Source of the DNA: Chloroflexota bacterium
GTDB taxonomy: Bacteria; Chloroflexota; Anaerolineae; Ardenticatenales; JAADHH01
DNA length: 42,248 bases
Direction of reading: 5' to 3'
NCBI GenBank assembly: GCA_013151955.1
Contig: JAADHH010000074.1
Location: 1-42,248, forward strand
In this document: positions 26,327 through 34,405 of the stretch, one piece after another
Layout: every line of letters begins with the position of its first letter
Position numbering within the stretch: position 1 is the first letter of the stretch
Program-made: the position numbers and the translations under genes
The notes under the pieces: model-generated
Databases searched by the model: none
Seen by the model: the letters and a program-made list of their open reading frames with translations, nothing else
Told to the model about the DNA's origin: nothing

Positions 26327-27214
26327 TCACGTATTCAACGTCCAATCGTACGCTCTGTGCGCGAATTCAATACGGTCCCCTTGCGCCGCAATCCAGCGAT
26401 GGCGTTCACCATCCTCCGGCAGATAGCGCAAAAGGAGAGAGTGCAGGCCCGGCTGCCCTCCGAAGTCGCCGGCATACCAGTGAAAAATCGAAGAAAGTCG
26501 CACAACGCCGGCATCCTCGTCCACCTCGACATCCGCATCCACAAAGTTTTGGGCGGCCAGGTCCAATTGGTCGTGAATCCTTTCCGCATCATAGACTCCG
26601 ACGGGAGGACACGAACGGCTGGCACAATTGAGCGCAAAATGGATGCGCGGGTCTGGTTGCGGCATGACCCAGGCAGCACGCGGATCGGTCGAGGCGAAGT
26701 GCGGCCCCGGCACGTAGGGGTTTCCACGGTTGCTGCGCAAGATGCCCTGTTCGATATCCTCGCAACTAAAACGATGCCCGCCGACCTCATAGGCGGCACG
26801 ACGAAAGAATCGAAACAGGCCAAACCGCTCTTCCGTGACGCTCTCCTGCACATCGAAAGCGATGACCGCATCGATCACCAGCGCATTATAAAGGTTGATC
26901 CAGAATGCAAGTCGTTCTTCCCGGGTCGTGAGCGTGGTTAAATCCAGGTTGCGCAATTGCGGCGTACAGGCAGTACGGTACATCGCATAAGCGTCACTCT
27001 CACGAAGGAGGCTGTAGTTCACGTGACGGCCGGGAGCGTCCATGGCCTCGGCTTTGAACGCATTGACCGCGCGTTTCAGCTCGGCCGAGAGCGCTTCCCC
27101 AGAGGGAGAGCCTTCCGGTGACGGTGCCCTGTTCAGCACTTCTTCTGCGCGCACGCCCAGCAGGGTGTTCAACAAACGCTCTCGCCCGGCGATCAGGTTG
27201 TCAATCAGTGTCAT
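26327..27214 (-). CDS. DUF547 domain protein
   Basis: 295 aa. The DUF547 core is clear: LAFWINLYNALVIDAV at ~115-130, then HFALNCASRSCPPVGVYDAERI with two conserved Cys near residues 195-200. The function of the family is unknown. No signal peptide is visible. AGGAGG precedes the ATG by 4 bases and lies in the 8-nt gap after the stop of the AhpD-like gene. That tight spacing only makes sense if the AhpD-like frame is translated through its internal TGA to 27223. Confidence 0.88.
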   Translation of the reverse strand: MTLIDNLIAGRERLLNTLLGVRAEEVLNRAPSPEGSPSGEALSAELKRAVNAFKAEAMDAPGRHVNYSLLRESDAYAMYRTACTPQLRNLDLTTLTTREERLAFWINLYNALVIDAVIAFDVQESVTEERFGLFRFFRRAAYEVGGHRFSCEDIEQGILRSNRGNPYVPGPHFASTDPRAAWVMPQPDPRIHFALNCASRSCPPVGVYDAERIHDQLDLAAQNFVDADVEVDEDAGVVRLSSIFHWYAGDFGGQPGLHSLLLRYLPEDGERHRWIAAQGDRIEFAHRAYDWTLNT

Positions 27215-27222
27215 TCGTCCTC

Positions 27223-27771
27223 CTAATAATCCTCCAGCGAGACGCCCAAACCATCGGCCAGCCGGTTCACATAGGCAAAGTAAGCGGTGATCTGGGCGAT
27301 GTCCAGGATGGCGTGGTCGCCGAAGCCGGCCAACCGCAACGTCTCCACGTCGGCCTCCACGACATCGGCCGGCGTACGGGTCAGCTTCGCCACATAGCCG
27401 AGCATGACCCGGTCCGCGCTGCTGAGGGGAGCGCGGGTGTAATCTTCCTTGAGTTGCGCGACCAGCGCATCGTCACGTGTAACCCTACGGAGAGCCTCCC
27501 CGTGGTGGGTGATTCAGTAGCGACAATGGTTCAATGTTGATACCACCAGGCCGATCATCTCCCGTTGATAGCGCTTGAGTGGAGACGGGCCAAACATCAG
27601 GGTATGATACAGGGCACGGTGGTCGAGCATGGACTGCGGGTTCAGGCTGTGAATCTTCATGATGTTTGCCGCCCGCCCGGTCCGCGGATCAGCACACAAG
27701 GCGTAAGCGTCAGACAGCGACTCGGTGGCCTGTTCCTCATCGATCATTTGGATCCAGGCTTTGTTCTTCAT
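27223..27771 (-). CDS. AhpD-like (CMD family) peroxidase-related selenoprotein, TGA read as Sec
   Basis: 182 aa when TGA at 27514-27516 is read as selenocysteine (residue 86). The ORF track splits it into an 85-aa N-terminal piece and an unstarted C-terminal piece in the same frame. The joined protein is a complete alkylhydroperoxidase-like/CMD protein: MKNKAWIQMIDEEQA..., SPLKRYQREMIGLVVSTLNHCRY-U-ITHHGEALRR, then a normal C-terminal half ending SLEDY. The family active site is C-x-x-C-x3-H; here it reads C-R-Y-U-I-T-H, so the TGA is exactly the second redox Cys. A G-rich hairpin follows the TGA. A ribosome site (AGAGGGGG) precedes the ATG. Expected role: redox-relay partner reducing hydroperoxides. 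A simple nonsense mutation is the alternative. Confidence 0.87.
27487..27503 (-). promoter_or_regulatory. Candidate bacterial SECIS hairpin in the AhpD-like gene
   Basis: Downstream of the TGA the RNA folds ACGGGGA-GGC-TCTCCGT: a 7-bp stem with one G-U pair and a GGC loop. The first loop G is nucleotide 18 after UGA. Bacterial SECIS elements place a G-bearing apical loop roughly 16-37 nt after UGA, so position and loop both fit. Confidence 0.6.
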
Positions 27772-27836: not shown

Positions 27837-28385
27837 TCACGGAGCGGTTGCCAACTCCTGTAAACGGGCCAACAAGGCGGATACCGGAGGCCGGTCGGTG
27901 GGGTCGTGGCTGCGGTAGGCCAGGCGCACGATTCCGGTCGTGTCCACGATGAAATCGCCACCGAGTTGCGTGGAGTCTCCCTGAACGCCCCGCCAACGGC
28001 GGCCGGCACGCATGAGCTGTACGTACCGCCATGTCGTCCGCAGATTCCAAGAGCGCAGCCAGGAGCGTTCCAGCCCATAGGCACGATACACCTGCCGCTC
28101 CTCGTCCAGCAAGACGGGGAACGATACCCCTGTTTCCTCCAGCCAGGCATGGGCCAGCGGCGAAGAGCCAAAGGTAACCACCAAGACAGAAACGTTCAGT
28201 TTGAGGAGTTCGTCTTCCTGTTGGCGCAACTGCGCCACATGCTCGCGGCAGGGCAGTCAGCCAAGGTGGCGAAGAAACACCAGCAGGGCATTGTGCCCTC
28301 CCTGCAAGGTATCGTCCAGCGAGACGGCCCGGCCGTCCACGTCTGGTAATGAGAATCTGGGGGCCTGGTCGCCGGCCTCAATCAT
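27837..28385 (-). CDS. Peroxiredoxin-like (AhpC-TSA_2) selenoprotein, TGA read as Sec
   Basis: 182 aa when TGA at 28257-28259 is Sec (residue 43). The real start is the ATG at 28385 behind AAGGAG (7-base spacer), not the internal GTG of the ORF track. The 42 residues before the TGA form a normal peroxiredoxin N-terminus (MIEAGDQAPRFSLPDVDGR...NALLVFLRHLG). Then comes U-LPC-REHVAQLRQ and the rest of the thioredoxin fold (VVTFGSSP, GVSFPVLLDEERQVYRAYGL, GGDFIVDTTG). Relatives have GCxxC here, so TGA replaces the first redox Cys, giving U-x-x-C. It is probably the first gene of the operon, 65 nt before the AhpD-like gene. Confidence 0.88.
28230..28256 (-). promoter_or_regulatory. Candidate SECIS hairpin in the peroxiredoxin-like gene
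   Basis: Directly after the TGA: CTGC-(CCT)-GCCGC-GAGCAT-GTGGC-GCAG, a 9-bp stem with a 3-base bulge and a loop beginning with G. The loop starts at nucleotide 13 after UGA, somewhat closer than typical, so the exact fold is uncertain. Confidence 0.45.
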
Positions 28386-29670: not shown

Positions 29671-31158
29671 CTAGCCAATCTTACGTAGCGCATGTTCGCG
29701 TCCGTTGTAGGAGAGCAGCCGGCGAGTCCCATCCAGTGTAGTTTCCAGATAAACGGGACGAGACCAAATTTGGAAGAGATTCGCCAAAGTATCCCGGCCA
29801 TAGGTTATATCCAGGTCCACGCCATCATGTTTATGATGAAGATACAACTCTCCCCGGTTCCGAAAGTTCGCGTCCTGCACTTCGATTACGGGCTGGCCAC
29901 GGTTTGTCAATGAACGCAGCAACTGACTCTTGATCCTCTGAAATTCACGAGAGTCGATCTCGTAGTAGCCGGTTCGCTCATTGAACTTATAGGCAAAGAG
30001 CTTGTAGCGCAGACAGAACTCTTCTGTAAGGAAGGTATCAATGAAGCCGAGATCGTTGTAAATTCGGCGCACTTCGAAGATTTTCTCCCGCCCCAGGCCA
30101 AGTTTTTGGTCCCACGTAGCTTTTACGGCTCGATCATCACACGCCTCGTACTCCCGGCCAAATTGGCCCTTGTTCCAACGGTCTTCGATGTCCCGATACA
30201 ACTCCAGGCCGATTTTGTAGGGATTGATGCGATGGGGATTCATGGCTACGGTGCCTGCGTGATGGTCGGCATAATCCACCACCTCCGCCGGCTCCATGAC
30301 CCCCGACTGAGTCATGATCGTCGTATGCCAATAGCTTGCCCAGCCTTCGTTCATGATTTTGGTCATCGCCTGGGGTGCGAAGTAATAGGCCTCTTCGCGA
30401 ATGATGGCCAGGATATCCTGCTGCCAGGGGTCCAGGGGAGCATGATTCAAGAGAAAGAGGAGAACGTCCTGCTGCGGTTGCGCGGGGAACTTTTGCTTGC
30501 GTGCTTTGGCCTCTTCAGCTTGCCGGCGCGCATCTTCTCGCAGTTCTGCCGGGGGGTTGATGAAACGATCCATGTACCCTTTGCTGGGCAGTCGCGCAGG
30601 CTGCGGCGTTTCGCCTTCCTCGTTCGTTTCTTCCGGCGGATGTGCCGGTTGTTTCACGTAAGCGGCGTGTACATCAATCAGGTTATCCAGGGAGAGGCAA
30701 GTATCTATGAATTCCTCCACTTCTTCCAACCCATACCGGTCGATAAACTGGCGGACACGGGTGGCATGATTCGCCATCTCGTCCATCATCTTGCGGTTTG
30801 TCGGTGCAAACCAGAAATTTTTCTTGAAGAAATCGGCGTGCGCATAGACATGGGCCATGACGATCTTTTGATCTATCGTTGCGTTGCTCTTCAGCAGATA
30901 GGCATAGCAGGGATCGTTGTTGATGACCATCTCGTAAATCCGGTGCAATCCATACGCATAACTTTTGCGCATACGCTCGAACTCCATGCCGAAGCGCCAG
31001 TGGGGATAGCGCGTGGGGAAGCCCATGTAGGAAGCGACCTCGTTCATCTGGTGAAAATCGAGCACCTCGAAAATGACTTCGAAGAAGTCAAGGCCGTATT
31101 CCAGGGCCTGCGCACGAATCCGATCTCGCTCTTTCGCCAGTTCTTTGGGCAATGCCAT
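29671..31158 (-). CDS. spoVR: SpoVR-family protein
   Basis: 495 aa, the usual family length. Characteristic segments are present: YGLDFFEVIFEVLDFHQMNEVASYMGFPTRYPHWRFGMEFERM, INNDPCYAYLLKSN, MAHVYAHADFFKKN, EGWASYWH, and NPYKIGLELYRDIEDRW. The biochemical role is unknown; in Bacillus it affects spore cortex, and in enterobacteria the orthologue YcgB is a stationary-phase protein acting with YeaG/YeaH. Here it is the third gene of the prkA-yeaH-spoVR operon, 6 nt after yeaH. No sporulation gene is in the window, so a stress role is more likely than sporulation. Confidence 0.95.
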   Translation of the reverse strand: MALPKELAKERDRIRAQALEYGLDFFEVIFEVLDFHQMNEVASYMGFPTRYPHWRFGMEFERMRKSYAYGLHRIYEMVINNDPCYAYLLKSNATIDQKIVMAHVYAHADFFKKNFWFAPTNRKMMDEMANHATRVRQFIDRYGLEEVEEFIDTCLSLDNLIDVHAAYVKQPAHPPEETNEEGETPQPARLPSKGYMDRFINPPAELREDARRQAEEAKARKQKFPAQPQQDVLLFLLNHAPLDPWQQDILAIIREEAYYFAPQAMTKIMNEGWASYWHTTIMTQSGVMEPAEVVDYADHHAGTVAMNPHRINPYKIGLELYRDIEDRWNKGQFGREYEACDDRAVKATWDQKLGLGREKIFEVRRIYNDLGFIDTFLTEEFCLRYKLFAYKFNERTGYYEIDSREFQRIKSQLLRSLTNRGQPVIEVQDANFRNRGELYLHHKHDGVDLDITYGRDTLANLFQIWSRPVYLETTLDGTRRLLSYNGREHALRKIG

Positions 31159-31164
31159 CTTTCC

Positions 31165-32274
31165 CTACCGCCCTTTGCCAAGGAATTCTTTTATGGAATC
31201 GTAGATTCCGTCGCGGCCATCGATCTCCGAGAGTATGACCTGTTCATGTTCACGGGAGAAGTGATCCTCCAGGTCGTGAATGAACTCGCCACTTCCGTAA
31301 TAACTTTCCACCTGCCCGTAGCAAAACAGATTGGCGCTCGGCAACAGCGTTTCATCCAATATCTTCAAACACTTCTCCGTATCGCCGCCCCCCCAATTGT
31401 CCCCGTCGGAAAAATGGAATGGGTAGATGTTCCACTCGTCAGCGGGGTAATAGCGCGCGATGATTTCTGCGCAAAGGTCATAGGCCGAAGAAATTATCGT
31501 GCCACCGCTCTCCCGCGTGTGAAAGAAGGTCTCGCGATCTACTTCCCTCGCTTCCGCGTCATGGATAATGAACCGCGTTTCCAGATTGCGGTACTGGGAT
31601 TGAAGCCAAGTATCAATCCAAAATGCTTCGATACGCACGATGTCCTTTTGTTCATCGCCCATGCTTCCGGAAACATCCATCATGTAGATCACAACGGCAT
31701 TGCTCTCCGGAAGTTGTACCTCCTTCCACGACCGGTAGCGCTTGTCATCCGGTATGGGGACGATGAGGGGGGCCGAGCTGTTATACGAGCCGCTGCTCAG
31801 TTGCCGTTTGAGCGCTTGTTTGTATGTGCGCTTGAAATGGCGCAAGGATTCCGGCCCCGTGCGTCGGATTCCGCTGTAGCGGTCCTTTTCGCTGGTGATG
31901 TTCTTCTTTCCACGCGGTTCGATCTTGGGCAGTTCCAGCTCTTCGCCCAGGATCTGCGCCAGCTCCTCCAGGGTGAGCTCCACTTCCAAGATGTGTTGGC
32001 CGGGTTGGTCTCCCGCTTTCCCCATGCCGGCATCGTCCTGGCCGCGCCCAATCGGGGTACCCTTTTCACCATCGCCTTGCCCTACGCCGCCACCTTTGCG
32101 TTGGCCAAAGCGGAAGTGAGGTATTTCCACCTGAGGGATCGGGATGCTCACCAGGTTTTTCCCCCGCCGGCCGATTAGCTCGCCACGCGAGATATAGTTG
32201 CGCAGATTCTTGCGTACGTGACCGCGGGCAATCTCGTTGAACCGGCGGGTGTCTCGCTCGATTTTACTGATCAT
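31165..32274 (-). CDS. yeaH: YeaH/DUF444 (UPF0229) family protein
   Basis: 369 aa. The N-terminal part is basic and Gly-rich ([25 protein letters not shown]). The C-terminal half is a von Willebrand A-like domain with a MIDAS-type [19 protein letters not shown]. It is always found with PrkA and SpoVR and is thought to work in the same starvation/stress pathway, with unproven biochemistry. It lies 25 nt after prkA and 6 nt before spoVR. Confidence 0.94.
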
Positions 32275-32299
32275 CAGGGTCCTCTTTCCTTGCCGGGTC

Positions 32300-34405
32300 T
32301 CAGGCCGTCTCCCTGTTTTTCACATCCCCTCGCGCAAAGATACTGGCAACGTAATTCAGCACGTCGGTAGCGCAAACCTCACAATAACCAAAGTTGCTCT
32401 TCATGCGACTCTTGACGACGTCTATTTTCTCCTGGGTCTCCTGATCCATAACGCTGGATACCAGACTGGTCAACTTGATAGAATCTTTCTGGTCCTCGAA
32501 GAGTTTCAGTTCCAGCGCCTTCTGCAACCGTGGGTTGGAAGTGTAGTCGAATTTCTTGCCGTCCAAAGCCAACGCGGCGATGTAATTCATGATTTCCCGG
32601 CGGAAGTCATCCTTGCGACTGGCGGGAATGTCTATCTTCTCTTCTACAGAACGCATCAAGCGCTCGTCTGGTTCCTCATCCTGGCCGGTGAACCGGTTTC
32701 GGACTCTCTCGTGCTGGGTATAGGCCCGGACGTTGTCGATGTAGTTTGCGGCCAGGCGCTTTATGGCTTCCTCGTCAGCGGTTATTGCGCGCTGCACCTC
32801 GTTCTTCACAATGTCTTCGTATTCTTCCTTGACGACGGCCAACAGTTCACGATACCGGAGGCGGGTGTTTTCGTTGCTGATGAGGGCATGATGCTTCAAC
32901 CCCTCCTCCAATTCTGTCAAGACCATGAAAGGGTTGACGCACCCATCGGGGTAACGTTCATCTACCGTTTCGTGATCGCCACTTCCATCGAAGTTTACCA
33001 GCGCATTGGAAATCTTATCCTGAATATAGCGTGGCGAGATACCGTCCAACCCTTCCCGCTTAGCTTCCTCGCGCAATTCCCGGACGCTGTCGTCGGTAAA
33101 GCCGCGCAGCGCTTTGCCGTCATAGAGTTTGAGTTTCTGCATCAGGGTGAGGCCGGCGTGTTTCGGCTCTTCCAGACGAGTGAGCACGGCCCACATGGCC
33201 GCTATCTGCAGGACATGGGGGGCAATATGCTTGCCGACGATCCGGTCTTGCAGGAAATCTTTTTCGTAAATCTGAACCTCGTCGCCGAGGCGCGTGATGT
33301 ATGGAATGTCAATCTTGACCGTGCGATCGCGCAGAGCTTCCATGTATTCATTGTTCTGTAGCCTGCGATACTCCGGCTCATTCGTGTGCGCCAGGATCAC
33401 TTCGTCGATGTCCGTCTGGGAAAACTTCTTTGGCTTGATCTTGTGTTCTTGGGAAGCGCCCAGCAAGTCATAGAGGAAGGCCACATCCAGTTTGAGCACT
33501 TCGATGAATTCGATCAGTCCCCGATTGGCGATGTTGAACTCGCCATCGAAGTTGAAGGCGCGCGGGTCCGAGTCGGAGCCATATTCGGCAATCTTACGAT
33601 AGTTGATATCGCCGGTCAGCTCCGTCGAATCTTGATTCTTTTCGTCCTTGGGCTGGAAGGTTCCAATGCCCACTCGATCTTTTTCCGAGATGGCGAGCCG
33701 TTTGACCCGCACATGTTCCACAACCTTCCCCCAGTCACCCTCATATTGCTCCATCAGTTGCCGATAGATGAATCGACAAGCCGGGCACATATCCCCTTCG
33801 ACGACAACATGCTCTTCCTCCGGCAGTTTCGCGTTAAGCTTCTCCAAAACTTGTGCCCGCAACTCGATAGGTATGAGGCGCAAGGGGTCCTCGTGCATGG
33901 GGCAATCGAAATCTTCGCTCTCGGTATGCCACCCAAACGTGTAGAGGGCACCCTCTTCCGTGCGCGAGTAGGCCTCTAATCCCTTTTTGAGCAAGCGAAC
34001 GATGGTACTTTTCGAACTGCCCACGGGGCCATGGAGCAGAAGCACCCGTCGCTCTGTTCCGTAACGACGCGCAGCGGAGTGGAAAGCGTCCACCAAACTC
34101 ATCAAGGACCGGTCCAGACCGAAGATGCCATCCTTGCCATTATCGAGCGGATCATCGAAGAAGTTGTAATGCACAAGACGCTCACGATTCTCTGTATATT
34201 CCCTCGTGCCATGCGACAGAATCATGTCGTAAATGCGCCGGAAGGCGCTGCGTGCCACCCTTGGATTGCGCGCAACAATGTCCAGATATTCCGATAACGA
34301 GCCTTCCCAGTGCTGCTCGCGGAACGCTGTGGTATCCTGTTTTTGCGCAATAAATGCGACCAGCTCTTGTCCCTTAACCCGATTTGCAGTTTTTTTCTTT
34401 GCCAT
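32300..34405 (-). CDS. prkA: PrkA-type serine protein kinase/AAA protein (YeaG)
   Basis: 701 aa. An N-terminal AAA domain with Walker [21 protein letters not shown] (~110-130) precedes the C-terminal PrkA kinase-like domain. [12 protein letters not shown] and [12 protein letters not shown] are family signatures, the latter CxxC-bearing. PrkA was described as a serine kinase, and some homologues as an AAA+ protease; both views exist. GGGAGG lies 7 bases before the ATG. It is the first gene of the prkA-yeaH-spoVR operon. The 5' region contains an attenuator-like hairpin and, ~475 bp upstream, a promoter with four phased repeats. Confidence 0.95.

Follow-up and report, generated by a model that had tools for sequence, protein, structure and literature searches.

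The Sargasso Sea survey (PMC1088965) yielded 27 sequences of AhpD-like selenoproteins with a CxxU motif and GOS yielded 299 in COG2128 (PMC2398784), and a 2026 review lists them in its table as 'AhpD-like protein, TIGR01926, CxxU' (PMC13188914). One GOS read carries adjacent Prx-like and AhpD-like selenoprotein genes (PMC2398784). The catalytic relay of AhpD-like proteins is Glu-x11-Cys-x-Tyr/His-Cys-x3-His (PMC3141380). The family is already catalogued in published selenoprotein tables, and the original prediction for the locus analysed here states that AhpD-like selenoproteins have been described. This style of pairing is also known; the Chloroflexota gene is therefore a new member of a known family.

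The window is a stretch of 42,248 nucleotides from contig JAADHH010000074.1 of a Chloroflexota bacterium (assembly GCA_013151955.1). Sequence comparison indicates that 27223–27771 very probably encodes a functional AhpD-like selenoprotein, in which the UGA at 27514–27516 would be read as Sec. The gene immediately upstream is, by its translation and relatives, a second selenoprotein, a point absent from the original prediction. The features of the region are as follows.

26327–27214, minus strand: DUF547 gene, downstream of the AhpD-like gene (PF04784, 137.7 bits).
27215–27225, minus strand: TAG, the true stop codon of the AhpD-like gene, overlapped by AGGAGG, the ribosome-binding site for DUF547 (sequence).
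27223–27771, minus strand: predicted selenoprotein gene, AhpD-like (TIGR01926/CMD), with Sec86 in a product of 182 aa (translation, TIGR01926, TGA in relatives, AlphaFold/Foldseek).
27487–27503, minus strand: candidate bSECIS hairpin ACGGGGA-GGC-UCUCCGU, 17 nt from UGA to loop, -7.5 kcal/mol (folding, covariation, published model).
27514–27516, minus strand: in-frame TGA at the second redox residue of CxxC, predicted to encode Sec (sequence, translation, alignment).
27837–28385, minus strand: predicted second selenoprotein gene, SelL-related AhpC/TSA (peroxiredoxin-like), with U43-L-P-C46 (profile, translation, relatives).
28222–28237, minus strand: candidate bSECIS hairpin UGGCGC-AGUU-GCGCCA in the Prx-like gene, with 25 nt separating UGA and loop (covariation in 15 sequences, fold).
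28257–28259, minus strand: in-frame TGA, predicted Sec43 of the Prx-like gene (translation, relatives).

Translation of the minus strand from 27771 to 27223 gives MKNKAW...NHCRY-TGA-ITHHGEAL...LEDY-TAG, confirming that NHCRY-TGA-ITHHGEAL lies in one open frame: 85 codons, the TGA at 27514–27516 as the sole internal stop, 96 further codons, and TAG at 27223–27225. The product is a TIGR01926/CMD AhpD-like protein with an all-helical fold. It scores 143.4 bits against the NCBIfam profile TIGR01926 ('peroxidase-related enzyme'; cut-off 81.8) over residues 5–178 of 182, and 32.8 bits against Pfam CMD. The AlphaFold model, with Cys placed at position 86, is all-helical with a pLDDT of 94.5, and Foldseek aligns it to 3c1l, 2pfx and 6k40 with TM scores of 0.87–0.90. 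The motif reads C83-R-Y-U86-x2-H89-H90, and E71, C83, Y85, U86 and H90 show no variation in the alignment.

In public genomes, six Chloroflexota relatives carry TGA at this codon and relatives from Bacteroidota and one Myxococcota genome carry Cys, so that homologues do align with Cys at residue 86, as the original prediction implied. Among the distinct genomic sequences collected, the second-Cys site of C-x-x-C is TGA in 41 and Cys in 18. The close AhpD-like subfamily (E < 1e-55), searched for in 396 genomes of the class, is present in 48, with exactly one TGA in 47 of these; its sole TGA-free member is in genome G098, which has no SelA match. The conserved TGA spans many families of the class, in tens of genomes. 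Decay after the TGA was looked for, and the alignment has no frameshifts, with the 96 downstream residues conserved to the C-terminus. This conserved segment, together with TGA or Cys at the exact codon in relatives, marks the observed frame as more than a chance occurrence. The probable C-x-x-U selenoprotein first proposed is thus supported by the TGA/Cys alignment, the intact downstream protein, the Sec machinery of the genome and a fitting SECIS candidate.

SelA (560 bits), SelB (343 bits), SelD (382 bits) and tRNA-Sec (71.9 bits; tca in ARAGORN) are all found in the same genome as the AhpD-like gene. The selD gene (L112:2378-3352, minus strand) has its own in-frame TGA near the N-terminus, in SSCAGU, the position where SelD is known with Sec or Cys. 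A SelA match is absent from 8 of the 47 genomes with the TGA-form AhpD gene (six are no more than 86% complete, the other two 90–91%). With matches in 318 of the 396 genomes of the class, SelA presence is a weak discriminator for the Sec reading and was dropped as too frequent.

The hairpin following the TGA was found as originally described: ACGGGGA-GGC-UCUCCGU at 27503 to 27487 forms a G-rich stem of 7 bp with one G.U, and its loop starts at nucleotide 18 after the UGA. Published bSECIS criteria are a loop of 3–9 nt, a stem of 4–16 bp, G in the first two loop positions, a spacing of 16–37 nt and an energy of no more than -7.5 kcal/mol (PMC13188914). The candidate, with its 3-nt loop GGC, 7 bp and 17-nt spacing, lies within these ranges, its energy in isolation (-7.5 kcal/mol) being exactly at the limit; including an outer 4-bp helix it is -13.9 kcal/mol. 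In 16 sequences of the same register, 87.5% of stem cells are paired, against 34.8–54.5% in slid controls, and the covariation score of 0.158 (shuffled mean 0.099) exceeds all slid controls and was matched by 1 of 500 shuffles. The innermost pair varies among A-U, C-G and G-C across relatives, with codon 93 changing silently at its third base in step with the second base of codon 92. Eight other relatives have the 3' arm one codon later with pairing mostly retained, and at least some members of another subgroup have a hairpin with an AGUU loop farther downstream. Whole-segment folding energy after the TGA gave no signal against synonymous-codon shuffles (mean z -0.26), and the hairpin-specific energy was weakly better (mean z -0.77; p 0.125 for the window). 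Since total folding energy does not stand above synonymous shuffles, the SECIS case is built on covariation and fit to the model. An Rfam scan of the operon at a lax threshold returned chance miRNA matches only.

The upstream Prx-like protein scores 168 bits against NF040769 (SelL-related; cut-off 120). Its TGA is retained among relatives, one of which (L131) has Cys; another (L127) has two TGA codons, giving U-L-P-U (UxPU, UxxU). The hairpin of the Prx-like gene covaries strongly: in the 15 sequences aligned over it, 83.3% of cells are paired, double changes number 18 where shuffles average 6, and the covariation score is 0.583 against 0.242 in shuffles, a value reached by none of 500. A scan for consensus promoters upstream of this gene gave nothing useful. 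Further read-through genes in the window were sought by inspection of redox-motif context, and only the AhpD-like and Prx-like genes look real. Elsewhere in the window, at 29671–34405 on the minus strand, genes for PrkA kinase, DUF444/YhbH and SpoVR form an apparent operon, a grouping familiar from many bacteria.

The Prx-like and AhpD-like genes lie on the same strand with a 65-nt gap. At the other end, the true stop was said to be 8 nt before the next ATG, and this agrees with TAG at 27223–27225 and the DUF547 ATG at 27214. The DUF547 gene is probably translationally coupled to the AhpD-like gene, in that translation reaching the TAG, which overlaps AGGAGG, would favour such coupling. Of the genomes examined, this one alone has the order Prx-like, AhpD-like, DUF547, and in none of the relatives examined does the AhpD-like gene adjoin a Prx-like or DUF547 gene; in genome G103 (L120) a Prx-like selenoprotein gene is followed directly by DUF547 (56% identical), with no AhpD gene between. 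As the neighbourhood of the AhpD-like gene is not conserved in these relatives, the operon is unusable as comparative evidence. The literature searched did not name DUF547 together with selenoproteins.

The TGA is formally a stop in table 11, and the gene could be a pseudogene in which a nonsense mutation cuts the protein to 85 aa and leaves the remainder to decay. This is very improbable: the 96 downstream codons are intact and conserved, the identical TGA recurs across many families of the class, and the genome has complete Sec machinery; that both the TGA and the protein beyond it are conserved refutes the idea. Still less credible is a sequencing or assembly error for TGC or TGT, even though the source is a fragmented draft (166 contigs, 86% complete), as independent assemblies share this TGA at the identical position, which refutes it. 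A genome-wide reassignment of UGA (for example to Trp or Gly, code 4 or 25) would also account for the read-through, and we give it the same negligible weight: the genome has tRNA-Sec, SelA, SelB and SelD, the aligned TGA-free homologues carry Cys at the site, and the Prx-like gene itself terminates with TGA (27837–27839), so that UGA acts as a normal stop nearby; together these refute reassignment.

With the UGA read as Sec, SelB would carry Sec-tRNA(Sec) to 27514–27516, directed by the bSECIS hairpin that lies 17 nt downstream. Homology with AhpD would make Sec86 the residue that attacks (peroxidatic) and Cys83 the one that resolves, so that the protein most likely reduces hydroperoxides or disulfides through a selenenylsulfide; its function is most likely that of a thiol/selenol peroxidase or disulfide reductase. 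Whether it has a partner is a separate matter. The shared apparent operon with the upstream UxxC Prx-like selenoprotein makes an AhpC/AhpD-like couple plausible, as is an electron relay between the two proteins, and their adjacency by itself suggests that a couple with Sec on both partners could be the working unit. Only tentatively, and as a somewhat improbable arrangement, do we propose that a single relay joins the SelL-related UxxC protein to the CxxU AhpD-like protein, with Sec reacting in both and the DUF547 protein as an uncharacterised third component. We think the chances slightly better than even that the AhpD-like selenoprotein is a stand-alone disulfide reductase or hydroperoxidase of general function and not a partner of the Prx-like protein. 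The AhpD gene is beside a Prx-like gene in none of the relatives examined, and by our own count 37 of the 47 genomes with the TGA form have no close Prx-like homologue; because the AhpD gene usually stands alone in relatives, the couple is not obligatory. Against solitary action stand the 65-nt adjacency in this genome and the co-occurrence of both close homologues in 10 of the 396 genomes, where 3.6 are expected (hypergeometric p 0.001, which ignores kinship; the 10 shared genomes, like the 30 that bear the Prx-like gene, were counted by hand).

The AhpD-like gene is a well-supported member of its family, with tens of relatives, in a lineage unmentioned in the text of the 2026 review (PMC13188914). 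Both it and the Prx-like gene are of the kind that standard annotation would truncate or split, and the pair can serve as a definite test case for an AhpC/AhpD-like couple in which either side has Sec. The fresh detail is the second selenoprotein just upstream, which makes this a dual-selenoprotein unit adjoining DUF547.

Compared with the published AhpD-like selenoproteins (PMC1088965, PMC2398784, PMC13188914), likened here by family and motif, the Chloroflexota protein has the TIGR01926 model and the CxxU motif in common but differs in host and operon context. The solved TIGR01926 relatives (2pfx, 3c1l, 6k40, 2oyo and 2prr) are Cys forms of the same fold, the best of them at the TM scores given above, with a CxxC active site where Sec is predicted here. 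The Chloroflexota protein (E+12=C, C+3=U, U+4=H) spaces its relay as do M. tuberculosis AhpD, of the AhpC/AhpD system, and the AhpD-like protein PA0269 (PMC3141380), in which the relay is Glu/Cys/(Tyr or His)/Cys/His; their second Cys corresponds to Sec in the Chloroflexota protein; the fold match of M. tuberculosis AhpD to our model is weak (TM about 0.5). The pair on the GOS read (PMC2398784), matched by broad family, likewise comprises adjoining Prx-like and AhpD-like selenoproteins, but the Prx-like member here belongs with the SelL-related proteins (NF040769), and DUF547 follows.
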